The translations under genes and the position numbers were made by a program. Shown here one piece after another: positions 3,017-30,716 of a stretch of 40,077 nt of DNA. How positions within the stretch are numbered: the stretch's first letter is position 1; every line of letters starts with the position of its first letter. Source of the stretch: Bacteroidales bacterium Barb4 (GTDB lineage Bacteria > Bacteroidota > Bacteroidia > Bacteroidales > Tannerellaceae); the NCBI GenBank assembly GCA_001657575.1, contig LBCX01000004.1:1-40077 (forward strand), read 5' to 3'. The notes under the pieces are model-generated. The model was not told the origin of the DNA, did no database searches, and saw nothing but the letters and a program-made list of their open reading frames with translations.

Positions 3017-3049
3017 TTTTTATATCGAACTCGTGTTATTTCAGGACGA

Positions 3050-24583: not shown

Positions 24584-24671
24584 TTCATTTCAATTTTATG
24601 ATTTAACATCAGATACAGTAACGCAGGTATCAGCCTGTTTATTATCTGACGGTATGTAAATCCCAAAAGGA

Positions 24672-25121
24672 ATGCAGGATTTATTGTCCCAAATGCCGCA
24701 GCGGGAAAAAATAAAAGCGGGTTTCTCCAAAGGCAGAGAACGTTATAAGTGCAAAGACTGCGGTTGCAATTATACGGTTGAATTAAAGTCAACGGCTAAA
24801 CCCGAATCAATGAAAAAGCAGGTTCTTCGTTTGTATCTTGAATACTCAGGCTTTTGTTCAATCGGAAGACTGCCGGGAGTAAGCAACGTTTCAGTCTTGA
24901 ATCGGATCAGAAAATATGGAAAAGAGGCGGGGACACTTCATTTGGAAAGTATCGGAACAGAGAGGGCAGAAGCGGATGAAATGCACACTTATGCCGGTTC
25001 AAAAAACTGTTGCCGGATTTGGATTGCCGTTGACGGGCATGGAAAAAGATTCCTCGATTTTGTCAGCGGCTCTTGCGTTTCATCAATCACCGTTCCCGAA
25101 ACGGTCTTCGTCTGTGCATAA
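24672..25121 (+). pseudogene. Decayed IS1-family transposase gene, 3' part missing
   Basis: The N-terminal zinc ribbon is split: the CPKCRSGK codons (from 24685) lie in a different frame from the rest, so a one-base change in the A-rich run near 24706-24716 broke the gene. The main frame continues with KAGFSKGRERYKCKDCGCNYTVE, then a helix-turn-helix region and EADEMHTYAGSKNCCRIWIAVDG, which matches the start of the IS1 InsB catalytic domain. After FVSGSC the frame drifts and the C-terminal catalytic part is absent. A related fragment lacking the middle lies at 30817-31194 on the other side of susCD. No intact terminal repeats were found here. Confidence 0.75.
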
Positions 25122-25387
25122 ATACCCGTAACCGCCTGCAAATAATAAGCAGGCAAAGGCTGTCAGACACTTTTGGAGACAAGTGCATGAATACCCTGAT
25201 AGAAAGCCTCTTCGTTGTCTGTTTTTCATAACATTATTTTTTAATAGATTAACGTAAATCAATCATATATCTGTTCGGATTAACGTCCGTCAGGCATGAG
25301 TTCCGTGAGAACTATGGTGAAACCTTTCCGAAACAACGCTGATCGTGAAAGGCGGCTTTTCGATTTAACATTCTTTGATGACACTAT

Positions 25388-25502
25388 GCATCCCATACGG
25401 ATGTATAGTAGCATCCGTATGGGATGCATAGTAGCATCCGTATGGGATGCATAGTGTCATCCGTATGGGATGTATATACACATCTGTGCCGGATGTATAT
25501 TC
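25388..25502. repeat. Five tandem 23-bp dyad repeats inside the inverton
   Basis: Units start at 25388, 25411, 25434, 25457 and 25480. The core is GCATCCGTATGGGATGC, arms GCATCC/GGATGC around a five-base centre GTATG. The first unit has the centre reversed (CATAC), so it points opposite to the next three. The fifth is diverged (ACATCTGTGCCGGATGT). They could be binding sites for a regulator or recombinase. Confidence 0.85.
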
Positions 25503-25580
25503 CAGAGTAGTCAAGTCCCGAAAGGGCATCTGCGTAACATCAGTCAGTTACTAATATTGAAAAGGAAATAGAAAAACAGA

Positions 25581-25610
25581 TTGTTTAACAAAAAGCAATC
25601 AATATCTTTG
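25581..25610 (+). promoter_or_regulatory. Promoter of susC inside the invertible segment
   Basis: TTG at 25581-25583, a 19-base spacer and TATCTTTG at 25603-25610 give an exact Bacteroides-type promoter. The expected start is near 25617, leaving a leader of about 125 bases that includes a small hairpin (TCCCCT/AGGGGA, 25621-25639) and the right inverted repeat before the ATG at 25743. No TAnnTTTG box was found on the opposite strand of the segment. Confidence 0.8.
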
Positions 25611-25742
25611 GCAACGTCTTTCCCCTCAGGAGCAGGGGATAGATCAACTAAGTTCTCACGGAACTATACCACAAGTTCCGCAATGAATACTATTTATTAA
25701 ATCACAGATAATCTACTATTTATAAATTTAAATCTATCATTT

Positions 25743-28700
25743 ATGAGAGAAATGTGTAAAACATTTTCATTACGCGGATTGCCGGTGAAGATCGCGAAAG
25801 CGTTATTCGTGGCGGCTGTTCTGTTTATGAATGGTGTGCCTGCTTTGGCACAGTCCGGTGTGAAGATACGGGGCGTTGTGACGTCGGCTGCCGACGGCGA
25901 ACTGCTCATCGGGGTGAATGTTGTCCAAGCAGGGGCAACGACTAACGGTACGATTACCGACTTTGACGGTAAGTATGAACTGACTGTGCCCGCCGGTGCA
26001 GAGGTGGACTTTTCTTACATCGGTTACCTGAACCAAAAGATTAAGGCAGAGGCAGGGAAGACCGAATACAATGTAAGTTTGCGGGAAGATTCCCAATCGC
26101 TGGACGAAGTGGTGGTTGTGGGATACGGTGTGCAGAAGAAGAAGCTGGTGACCGGTGCAACGGTGCAGGTTGGCGGCGACGATTTGCAAAAACTGAGTTC
26201 AACCAGTGCCTTGGGTGCCTTGCAAAGCCAGACGCCGGGTGTGAACATTACGCAGCAGTCGGGCAAGCCGGGTGACGGTTTCAAAGTAACCATCCGCGGA
26301 TTGGGTACTATCGGCGACTCCAAACCGCTGTACGTCATCGATGGTATTGCCGGCGGCGACATCAATGCGCTGAACCCTTCGGACATTGAGACGATTGATG
26401 TATTGAAGGATGCCGCTTCGGCTGCTATCTACGGGGCGCGTGCCGCCAACGGTGTTATCTTGGTTACGACCAAGCAGGGTAAATCAGGGAAGATACAGGT
26501 CACTTATGACGGTTTTGCCGGTGTACAGAATGTGTACAAGATGCCCGCTTTGCTGAATGCCAAAGAATACATGGACATTCTGGATAAAATCAGTGCCAGC
26601 GGCAATGGCGGAGTATCCACCTATAATTGGGCGGAAAACGAAGTTCCCGCATACCTGATGAAGCGGATAAATGACGATACTTGGAAGGGTACCAACTGGC
26701 TGGAAGAATCCCTCAACAAAAATGCCTTTACACAGAATCATGCAATCAACCTGTTAGGCGGTAGCGATGTATCCAAATTCTCAATGGGCTTTTCCTATTC
26801 CGGACAGGAAGGTATTATCGGCAAGCAGATAGATCCTTCTTACGAGCGATATACCGCCCGTATCAATTCCGACCATGTCATATTGAAAGGCAAGGGATTT
26901 GATGCAGTCAAGATTGGCGAAAACGTTACTTTCTCGCATCGTTCCAACCATAACAGCGTTTCTACCGGCAACCGTTTCAGCAGTACGGTGGGCAGCTTGA
27001 TTAAAACAAGCCCGCTGATACCGATGTACAATGCCGACGGAGGCTGGTATGACCAAACCGATAAGGAAAGAGACGGCAGTTGGAAATCGTTTCAGCAAAT
27101 CGGCAACCCGCTTGCCCTCCTGTCCCTGACCGGTTCAGGCAACAACTTCTCGCGGAACTATTCGCTGAATGCCAGTGCCTATTTGGAAATACAGCCTGTC
27201 AAGGATTTGAAATACCGCTCGGTATTCGGTTACAAACAAACGGCATACCAGTCACGGAGTTATGATGCTGCCTATAATTTGTCCCTGAACGACAAGAGAC
27301 CGACCGATTATGTTACCCAAAGCGGGGATGCCGGTTACAGTGTCACGTGGGACAATACGATAAGCTACAGCTTCAAGGTGGCACAGCAGCATAGTTTCGA
27401 TGCCGTACTCGGGCAGTCTATTGAGAAATGGGGTATGGGGCAAAGTATGGAATCCAAAGTAGCCAACAGTATTTTTCCCGGTTCCTTCGATCATGCGTAC
27501 ATCATCAATGCCAAACCGTCTTCCCTGACGGATGTAACCACTATTACAGGTGCGCCGTGGGATTCGGGAGCCTTGGCTTCTTTCTTCGGGCGTGTGAACT
27601 ATAACTTCAAGGAAACCTATATGGCATCTGCCGTATTGCGTGCAGACGGTTCATCCAACTTTGCCAGCGGGCATCGCTGGGGTTATTTCCCGTCCTTGTC
27701 GGCAGGCTGGGTCATCACAAATGAGGACTTTATGGAAACGGCACGCAATAACGGGCTTGATTTCTTGAAGATCCGAGCAAGCTGGGGGCAGAACGGTAAT
27801 GCCAGCATCTCCAACTACCAGTATCTGGCTACGATTGCAATGGACGACAAGAACTCCTACTATTTCGGAGACAGCAAAGAGTCGCCTACGACCGGTGCCT
27901 ACGCCGATATTCTGCCCAATCCCGATGTCTCTTGGGAAACCTCTGAACAGTTGGACTTGGGGCTTGACGCACGGGTGTTAAACTCACGTCTCGGCATTAA
28001 TTTTGACTGGTACAGCAAAACGACCAAAGACTGGTTGGTTCAAGCCCCCCAGTTGGCAACATTCGGGACAGGTGCTCCTTATATAAACGGAGGCGATATC
28101 AAGAACTCAGGGGTTGAGCTTGGTTTGAACTGGAGCGACAAAGCGGGAGACTTCACGTATGGTGTAAACTTTAATGTTTCCTATAACAGGAATGAAGTAA
28201 CCCGTATCGCCAACTCGGAAGGGATCATTCACGGTCCGGCAGACGTGTTGAGCCAGCAAACGACGGAAATGTTCCGCGTGGAAGTGGGCAAGCCTGCCGG
28301 TTTCTTCTGGGGATATAAAACGAACGGTATTTTCCAGAATCAGGCACAAATTGATGCGCACCGCAGTGCCGGCAATGGCGTAGTGGACGAGAATGTGCAA
28401 CCGGGTGATGTGATTTTTGTTGATAACAACAAAGACGGCAGTATCACCGATGCGGATAAAGTAATGATTGGCAACCCGCATCCGGATTTTACCGGCGGTC
28501 TTTCGCTCTCTCTCGGTTATAAAGGCATAGACCTTGCTGTGACGGCATACGGTGCATTTGGTATGCAAATAGCCAAATCCTACCGTTCCTTTATGGACTA
28601 TCCCGAACAGAACTACACCTCGGAAGTTTTCAACTATTGGCATGGGGAAGGCACATCCAACACATCGCCCCGCCTGACAATCGGAACCCATTCAAACAAG

Positions 28701-28988
28701 GCGAACATATCTGACCTTTATGTTGAGAATGCCGACTACGTGAAAATATCCAATATAACCCTTGGTTACGACTTGAAGAAACTGTGCCCCAAGTTGCCGT
28801 TCGGGCAAACACGCCTGTATGTGACGGCTCAGAACCTGTTCACCTTTACCGGTTACAGCGGCATGGATCCGGAAGTAGGATATAATTACAGCGACAACGA
28901 CGGTGATTATACATGGTCAAGCGGTATTGACTTGGGCTTCTATCCGAGTGCCCGTACCTATTTGATAGGTCTTAATCTTAAATTTTAA
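25743..28988 (+). CDS. SusC/RagA family TonB-linked outer membrane transporter
   Basis: A 1081-residue TonB-dependent transporter for large nutrients such as glycans or peptides. It has an extended signal peptide ending near ALAQ (residue 37), a CarboxypepD-regulatory-like domain (IRGVVTSAADGELLIGVNVVQAGATTNGTITD and following), and the SusC signature SLDEVVVVGYGVQKKK. The plug domain (TPGVNITQQSG, IDGIAGGDINALNPSDIETIDVLKDAASAAIYGARAANGVI) is followed by a long beta barrel ending in YLIGLNLKF with a terminal aromatic. There is no N-terminal anti-sigma-binding extension and no sigma/anti-sigma pair nearby. It is paired with susD 15 bases downstream. The substrate cannot be inferred because no degradative enzymes are present. 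Confidence 0.97.
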   Translation: MREMCKTFSLRGLPVKIAKALFVAAVLFMNGVPALAQSGVKIRGVVTSAADGELLIGVNVVQAGATTNGTITDFDGKYELTVPAGAEVDFSYIGYLNQKIKAEAGKTEYNVSLREDSQSLDEVVVVGYGVQKKKLVTGATVQVGGDDLQKLSSTSALGALQSQTPGVNITQQSGKPGDGFKVTIRGLGTIGDSKPLYVIDGIAGGDINALNPSDIETIDVLKDAASAAIYGARAANGVILVTTKQGKSGKIQVTYDGFAGVQNVYKMPALLNAKEYMDILDKISASGNGGVSTYNWAENEVPAYLMKRINDDTWKGTNWLEESLNKNAFTQNHAINLLGGSDVSKFSMGFSYSGQEGIIGKQIDPSYERYTARINSDHVILKGKGFDAVKIGENVTFSHRSNHNSVSTGNRFSSTVGSLIKTSPLIPMYNADGGWYDQTDKERDGSWKSFQQIGNPLALLSLTGSGNNFSRNYSLNASAYLEIQPVKDLKYRSVFGYKQTAYQSRSYDAAYNLSLNDKRPTDYVTQSGDAGYSVTWDNTISYSFKVAQQHSFDAVLGQSIEKWGMGQSMESKVANSIFPGSFDHAYIINAKPSSLTDVTTITGAPWDSGALASFFGRVNYNFKETYMASAVLRADGSSNFASGHRWGYFPSLSAGWVITNEDFMETARNNGLDFLKIRASWGQNGNASISNYQYLATIAMDDKNSYYFGDSKESPTTGAYADILPNPDVSWETSEQLDLGLDARVLNSRLGINFDWYSKTTKDWLVQAPQLATFGTGAPYINGGDIKNSGVELGLNWSDKAGDFTYGVNFNVSYNRNEVTRIANSEGIIHGPADVLSQQTTEMFRVEVGKPAGFFWGYKTNGIFQNQAQIDAHRSAGNGVVDENVQPGDVIFVDNNKDGSITDADKVMIGNPHPDFTGGLSLSLGYKGIDLAVTAYGAFGMQIAKSYRSFMDYPEQNYTSEVFNYWHGEGTSNTSPRLTIGTHSNKANISDLYVENADYVKISNITLGYDLKKLCPKLPFGQTRLYVTAQNLFTFTGYSGMDPEVGYNYSDNDGDYTWSSGIDLGFYPSARTYLIGLNLKF

Positions 28989-29003: not shown

Positions 29004-30716
29004 ATGAAAAAGACAATATATTTAGCGGCAATCGCATTATTATGTATGAGTTGCGAAAGTTTTCTGGATACGGAAAACCTGACAAAAAAGGATACGACAA
29101 CCTTTCCCGTAGCGGAAACCGATGCCGACCAAATGGTAACAGGGGTGTATGCGACTTTGAGCATGGCGGTATCCAGCCCGCAAACCTCCTATTTCTATGC
29201 GGCGGAATTAGCATCTGATGAACGTTTCGGGGGCGGCGGTCATAATGACAAGGCTTTTACATCGCTGGATCACTTGATGACCGTAGGCCCTGATGCACAC
29301 CGTCCGTTTTGGGAAGCCCGTTATAAAGGTATATTCCGTGCCAATACGGCTTTGAGTACATTGGATAACTGCGAAGCGGGAGAAGCCTTGTTGAACCGTT
29401 ACAAGGGAGAAAGCCATTTCCTGCGAGCCTTCTTCTACCATGAATTGGCTGAAATGTTCGGCGAAGTGCCTTTAGTGCTTACCACACTGCCTGCCAACCA
29501 GCCGAGAGCGGCTGCCGACCTTATTTACGGGCAGATAGCCTACGACTTGAAGCAGGCTATCAACCTGCTGCCGGCTGACAGATACAATAATGTGGAATCC
29601 GGTCATGCCACGAAGTGGGCTGCCGAAGCCTTGATGGCACGGGTGTTCTTGTTTTACACCGGCTTCTACGGGAAAACTGAACTTCCTTTGGGCAACGGGG
29701 AAGGCGAAAACGCCAGTTCGGTTTCCAAATCGGAAGTCACCTCGTGGATAGACGACTGTATAAATAACAGCGGACATAAACTGTTGGATGATTTCCGCAG
29801 CTTGTGGCCTTATTCCAACCCGTACACTGCCGCTGAATACGACTATGTAAAGGATTTGTATGACTCTGGTCAGACATGGAAAGACGGTTCCGAAAACACT
29901 GAACACGTATTTGTAGTGAAAGCCTCCAACATGGCAAACTGGGGAACAATCATCGGATTCTCCAACCAATACGTTCTTCACTTCGGTCTGCGCGGCTCCA
30001 GTTCCAACGGTAATGAAGACACATTCCCGTTTGGCAGGGGTTGGGGAGCAGGGCCTGTCAATTCCACCCTCTGGACGGAATGGGGACAAGCCGAACCGGA
30101 AGACATGCGCTGCAAGGCTTCCATTCTGAATGTGGACACGGATGTGACGAAGTTTGAATACGGCGCGGACAACCAGATAGAAGAAACGGGCTTCTGGCAA
30201 AAGAAATACATCAGCATCCGTGCACACGACCCCGAGGGCAATCTGAGAACCTCTTTCTCCTCATTGATGTGGAAAAACAACGATGACTTCCAGCTAAGGC
30301 AGGTGCAGGACTTGATTGTAATCCGCTTTGCCGATGTATTGCTGATGCAGTCCGAATTGAAGGAAAACGCGGAAGGACTCAACAAGGTACGTGCCCGTGC
30401 CAAATTACCTTCTGCGGTCTATTCATTGGAGACCTTGAAAAAGGAACGCCGGTTTGAGTTGGCGTTTGAGGGTCGCCGCTGGGCGGACATTCGCCGCTGG
30501 GGAGATGCTCCCGCTTTATTAGGCAAGCAGGTAGGCGTGGATATTTACAACCGTGGAGTGCGGGATAAAATGAAGAACTTCGGCACGGGATACACAGCCC
30601 GTTACAACGAAACTCAAGGATTCTTCCCTATTCCCCAGTCCGAAATAGACTTGTCGGACGGAGTGTTGCAGCAATCACCGGGATGGGGAACAGAAGCCCA
30701 ATTCCAAGGCTGGTAA
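29004..30716 (+). CDS. RagB/SusD family nutrient-binding outer membrane lipoprotein
   Basis: This 570-residue surface lipoprotein, with lipobox LLCMSC and acylated Cys17, forms the lid of the SusC transporter. SusD features are visible: ESFLDTENLTKKDTTTFPV at the start, the TPR-like part (YKGIFRANTALSTLDNCE, GESHFLRAFFYHELAEMFGEVPLV) and the C-terminal family block LKKERRFELAFEGRRWADIRRWGDA, followed by GFFPIPQSEIDLS. The length is typical. It is co-transcribed with susC and ends at a strong terminator. No glycoside hydrolase, protease or sulfatase follows, so this is a bare SusCD pair. Confidence 0.97.
   Translation: MKKTIYLAAIALLCMSCESFLDTENLTKKDTTTFPVAETDADQMVTGVYATLSMAVSSPQTSYFYAAELASDERFGGGGHNDKAFTSLDHLMTVGPDAHRPFWEARYKGIFRANTALSTLDNCEAGEALLNRYKGESHFLRAFFYHELAEMFGEVPLVLTTLPANQPRAAADLIYGQIAYDLKQAINLLPADRYNNVESGHATKWAAEALMARVFLFYTGFYGKTELPLGNGEGENASSVSKSEVTSWIDDCINNSGHKLLDDFRSLWPYSNPYTAAEYDYVKDLYDSGQTWKDGSENTEHVFVVKASNMANWGTIIGFSNQYVLHFGLRGSSSNGNEDTFPFGRGWGAGPVNSTLWTEWGQAEPEDMRCKASILNVDTDVTKFEYGADNQIEETGFWQKKYISIRAHDPEGNLRTSFSSLMWKNNDDFQLRQVQDLIVIRFADVLLMQSELKENAEGLNKVRARAKLPSAVYSLETLKKERRFELAFEGRRWADIRRWGDAPALLGKQVGVDIYNRGVRDKMKNFGTGYTARYNETQGFFPIPQSEIDLSDGVLQQSPGWGTEAQFQGW

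Follow-up and report, generated by a model that had tools for sequence, protein, structure and literature searches.

Does the short segment upstream of a susC/susD pair in Bacteroidales bacterium Barb4, a gut-type organism, carry a promoter that can be turned around, as a first-pass annotation of the locus had proposed? We addressed this question in the window, by which we mean the whole 40,077-nucleotide stretch of DNA analysed (contig C371 of the source genome, here G000; 3.33 Mb in 553 contigs), and in the genomes of related bacteria. The reading that we favour, with a probability of roughly 0.85, is that positions 25299-25665 form an invertible promoter cassette that is flipped by a tyrosine recombinase acting in trans.

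Anatomy of the susC promoter cassette

The features of the locus are as follows.

24672..25121, + strand: IS1-family transposase remnant, on the side that the promoter would face if flipped
25299..25313, + strand: left recombination site AGTTC-CGTGA-GAACT (AGTTCCGTGAGAACT)
25314..25650, no strand: putative invertible segment of 337 bp between the two sites
25388..25500, no strand: 23-bp imperfect palindromic tandem repeats behind the promoter
25581..25610, + strand: promoter TTG-N19-TATCTTTG (TAnnTTTG consensus; TTG at 25581, TATCTTTG at 25603-25610), aimed at susC and thus predicted ON as assembled
25651..25665, - strand: right recombination site AGTTCTCACGGAACT, exact reverse complement of the left site
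25666..25742, + strand: leader from the right site to the susC start, lacking a promoter consensus of its own
25743..28988, + strand: susC, TonB-dependent receptor (TIGR04056, 884 bits)
29004..30716, + strand: susD (SusD_RagB, SusD-like_3; PF07980/PF14322)

The first-pass annotation had described an exact 15-bp inverted repeat around 337 bp, with the central five bases of each arm fixing its orientation, and both points hold. The arms are perfect reverse complements, and each is a dyad (AGTTC/GAACT) around an asymmetric core that reads CGTGA on the left and TCACG on the right. At the left site ATGGT continues inward, as in the family consensus described below, and at the right site ATACC lies on the outward side. 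Both arms also match AGTYYYN4GDACT, which Nakayama-Imaohji reportedly gave in 2009 as the site consensus of the Bacteroides fragilis recombinase Tsr0667. This pattern has four matches over both strands of the window, corresponding to the two sites (0.22 expected), and no match in the window beyond the two cassette arms.

Judged by the Bacteroidota promoter consensus TAnnTTTG (PMC4747536, PMC8748976), the segment has one complete promoter toward susC on its + strand, as had been claimed, and none on its - strand. A full + strand promoter occurs in 0.4% of dinucleotide shuffles of the segment. TANNTTTG is absent from the stretch that separates the right arm from the ATG of susC, and likewise from 24600-25298. 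The arrangement is that by which invertons are recognised, namely a promoter between inverted repeats that is oriented at the downstream gene. The identification of the downstream genes as a susC/susD pair was likewise borne out by the profile matches listed above, and the "dead IS remnant" was rightly so called: the IS1 transposase match spans model positions 8-135 of 199 at 87 bits, which is below the curated cut-off, and the remnant is truncated at about model position 135.

If the cassette works as we suppose, a tyrosine site-specific recombinase supplied in trans would exchange strands within the 5-nt cores of both inverted sites, and this exchange would reverse the 337-bp segment. In the assembled orientation the locus would be ON, its promoter reading across the right site into susC-susD. 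After reversal it would be OFF, as the promoter would face the IS1 remnant and susC-susD would have no recognisable promoter.

Behind the promoter, positions 25377-25387 together with the repeats to 25500 are predicted to fold, as RNA, into a hairpin of very high stability (-73.7 kcal/mol, z -9.95). Arrays resembling these repeats occur on contigs C328, C112, C108, C266 and C418 of the same genome, and GGCATCTGCGTAACATCAGTCA, at window positions 25523-25544, is part of a repeat with more than 10 further genome copies. At the protein level the closest named relatives of the window susC belong to Parabacteroides sp. PH5-46 and PF5-6 and to a Tannerellaceae MAG (64-56% identity). No inverton is present at the corresponding place of the orthologous susC loci (59-64% identity) of named relatives, and a plasmid search returned no match to the cassette.

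A genome-wide family of core-matched inverted sites

The window sites belong to a large family, which the first-pass annotation had overlooked, as it had the tandem repeats inside the segment. AGTTCN5GAACT occurs at 81 sites in G000, as against 2 for a reversed-pattern control, and a symmetrised logo of the sites extends the arms to roughly ACCATAGTTC N5 GAACTATGGT. All ten close same-core pairs that bound a short cassette, the window cassette included, are inverted; the sole close direct copies are two 35-bp doublets on C38 and C73. Most cassettes differ from one another in their cores. Since the cores are mostly locus-specific, a cassette is expected to pair mainly with itself, and from the way tyrosine recombinases work these differences would fit a need for core identity in recombination that limits cross-talk. 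The fragmented assembly hides many cassettes in G000. In two relatives, G003 and G010 (31 sites, and 61 sites in 1.6 Mb, respectively), almost every site belongs to a core-matched inverted pair; the two members are mostly 100-500 bp apart, and several of the pairs lie next to susC.

The sites are strongly associated with susC. Defining adjacency as a site at most 700 bp upstream of a gene or just inside it, we found that 18 of the 36 full susC genes of G000 adjoin a site, where 0.8 would be expected (P about 1e-20; this P value, like that for contig ends below, assumes uniform placement and ignores site pairing and intergenic clustering). That each arm is itself a dyad, like the binding sites of regulators, would suit an inverted repeat that arose by chance, or a duplicated operator dyad in front of susC. 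We regard this explanation as highly improbable given the excess of core-matched, inverted copies over the control, the presence of sites inside susC coding sequence as well, and the co-occurrence of the sites with a recombinase.

Several other sites were noted. One cassette, at C338 6653-6977 (L107), lies between a susC and a susD gene and would separate the pair. Sites at C472 9 (L120) and C38 119-168 (L073) lie upstream of genes for a tRNA synthetase (class I, W/Y type) and a class-V aminotransferase; these would be unusual targets of phase variation, and the sites could have no regulatory role or be read from the opposite side. The genome G020, with 12 sites and no close ortholog of the candidate recombinase described below, at first appears to be a counter-example to the association of enzyme and sites. 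Seven of its sites, though, are AGTTCGTAGGGAACT, with one fixed core and none paired, and these dispersed copies (among L205-L216) are not part of the AGTTC-N5-GAACT inversion family.

Cassette contents and probable susC shufflons

In G003 exactly one TANNTTTG is present in 9 of 11 cassettes, a number that averaged 3.7 over 500 shuffles and reached 9 at most, and the susC genes beside cassettes are seen in both ON and OFF arrangements. In G010 the figure is 12 of 28, as against 4.7 in shuffles. A three-site cassette of G003 (C6 3059-3283, L180) lies between two divergent susC genes, and its flipping could choose between them. Among the 15 intact cassettes of G000 that we examined, the TANNTTTG promoter is present in 2, slightly below shuffles: the window cassette, which is ON, and C3:9892-10060, whose promoter faces away from susC. 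Because only these two hold such a promoter, we cannot take it that the family in general consists of promoter switches. The other G000 cassettes carry dispersed palindromic repeats, and they may have promoters missed by the consensus or another mode of action.

The predominance in G000 of cassettes with dispersed palindromic repeats and no canonical promoter, the homologous ends of some of them, and the placement of some sites upstream of housekeeping-type genes such as the tRNA synthetase would also be explained if what the sites bound were a non-autonomous mobile or repeat-carrying element that contains the susC promoter only incidentally. Yet cores that match within pairs and differ between pairs are expected of inversion and not of transposition, half of the susC genes adjoin a site, and the G003 cassettes carry single promoters, and we consider this explanation quite unlikely. 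It is also unlikely, in our estimate, that a single recombinase flips a mixed set made up of a few promoters, susC shufflons and a majority of promoterless palindromic cassettes acting as possible invertible terminators or insulators. Were that so, the 124-nt hairpin array of the window cassette would shield susC from upstream read-through in either orientation.

The same site is also found within susC genes. At C9:9906 (L067) it lies inside the N-terminal coding region of a susC gene (FELNVPSSSRTLVISYVGM), where it follows a 248-bp head comprising the promoter side, the signal peptide and the start of the mature protein. This head recurs on C252 (L093, 265), identical at 247 of 248 positions, and there a different sequence is attached to it at the site; C316 (L104, 4807) has a headless susC body that starts at the site. 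Together these loci form a probable susC shufflon that uses the same site as the promoter cassette. In the relative G019 (C4, L150), a tyrosine recombinase gene is flanked by two inverted sites, at 1481 and at 3032, both of them within susC-like coding sequence.

Signs of inversion activity

An assembler breaks where the segment beyond a site occurs in both orientations, and contigs would for this reason stop at active sites. Nine of the 81 sites of G000 are at most 5 bp from a contig end, where 0.13 would be expected (P about 4e-14). Six of the nine make up three left/right flank pairs (C54/C180, C331/C447 and C111/C343), in which each contig extends exactly one base beyond the site and stops where a common 16-bp repeat ends. 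These matching flanks suggest that the population from which the DNA was sequenced contained both orientations. Less weight attaches to contig ends that lie 200-350 bp beyond a site, since the segments contain dispersed repeats as well. Two further sites, at C367 3988 (L112) and C422 3138 (L116), have 200 identical bases beyond the site and different flanks; they represent either a single cassette seen both ways round or the result of a recent duplication, and the genes that flank the shared stretch are not neighbours in relatives.

At the window cassette the contig runs through in the ON orientation only, in this single assembly. As it is unbroken there, the locus gives no sign of mixed orientation, and we infer its activity from that of the family. 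One could therefore argue that the cassette is a genuine family member now locked ON, its sites remaining while inversion here has become rare or been lost. Many other sites coincide with contig ends, while the contig here is unbroken, and each window site has one good extended arm (ATGGT on the left, ATACC on the right), which is weaker than the family consensus. An exact 15-bp repeat that includes the 5-nt core, however, would drift without selection or recombination, and the assembly also runs unbroken through at least nine other intact pairs with matching cores, so that continuity of this kind is common. We think a locked state improbable. The phase-variable promoter proposed in the first-pass annotation is thus supported by the local anatomy, the core-matched inverted family, the enrichment at susC and the contig breaks elsewhere, and the window cassette is a real and probably working example.

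A candidate recombinase

Matches to PF00589 were found at ten places in G000. The best candidate for the enzyme is a 323-aa protein (C23:4331-5299, - strand) with PF13102 and PF00589 domains, in which the catalytic residues R171, K198, H260, R263, H286 and Y295 are all invariant. Close orthologs of this protein (E below 1e-50) are present in 17 of 48 same-family relatives, and the genomes that have one contain a median of 9 sites, as against 3 in those without (P = 5e-5). Counts of the reversed-pattern control did not differ between the two groups (P = 0.65). The association is retained at genus level (P = 5e-4), an analysis that allows in part for shared ancestry, and its strongest cases are G010 and G003. 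The G019 recombinase that lies between two inverted sites is 58% identical to the C23 protein. No AGTTC-N5-GAACT site lies near the C23 gene itself in G000. The assignment is correlational, and we infer the catalytic role of this protein from the co-occurrence of enzyme and sites.

Three other tyrosine recombinases of G000 were set aside. Two are XerC/XerD-like. The third, a 254-aa protein (C1:24003-24764), has a distribution limited to 5 of 81 genomes, one that shows no relation to the number of sites. Of the ten PF00589 matches, the C23 and C1 proteins were the two compared with site number in this way.

Comparison with known inversion systems

The 23-bp tandem repeats recall the BrickBuilt MITEs of Porphyromonas gingivalis, intergenic elements that have tandem repeats of the same length, for which promoter activity has been reported and whose terminal repeats are of IS5 type, GAGACCTTTGCA / TGCAAAGGTCTC (PMC4596501). 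We rejected the cassette as an element of this kind, as its ends are AGTTC-N5-GAACT and unrelated to the IS5-type repeats. The locus resembles the invertons found by PhaseFinder-type analyses, in which short inverted repeats likewise surround a Bacteroidota promoter near surface genes, including susC/susD (PMC11892184, PMC10939037). In read-based surveys susC/susD is a common target (PMC10939037). Those invertons are confirmed by reads in both orientations, whereas the window cassette is known from one assembly. Global promoter inversion by one trans-acting master invertase is also known from Mpi of B. fragilis, a serine recombinase for which polysaccharide promoters make up 7 of 13 regions (PMC4747536, PMC5903667). 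The candidate here, in contrast, is a tyrosine recombinase, and its main targets would be susC genes.

In both anatomy and behaviour our system matches the one by which Tsr0667 inverts susC/susD regions in B. fragilis. According to the summary in PMC4747536 of the 2009 work of Nakayama-Imaohji, Tsr0667 (BF0667) of strain YCH46 is a tyrosine recombinase that acts on three susC/susD shufflons and inverts nine further regions as well. Both systems have susC/susD targets and many dispersed regions, mostly at susC/susD genes (here 81 sites, with 18 of 36 susC genes adjoining one), and in both, promoter inversion and susC shufflons share one kind of site. Both window sites fit the Tsr0667 consensus given above, and one unlinked master enzyme is likely here too, the enzymes being likened by class, as tyrosine recombinases. 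The differences are of scale and host, with 81 exact sites here against twelve regions in B. fragilis and a host from another family, Tannerellaceae-like.

The suggestion in the first-pass annotation that this copy may be new therefore stands for the member and not for the mechanism, which is already known from Bacteroides; what is new is the member, the host lineage and the unusually large size of the family. Our analysis extends inversion of the B. fragilis susC/susD type to another Bacteroidales family, and names a candidate recombinase together with relatives suited to testing the idea. It also suggests that such a system can extend to about 80 sites in a genome and involve half of its susC genes, and the expression of nutrient receptors would therefore be broadly randomised by one enzyme.
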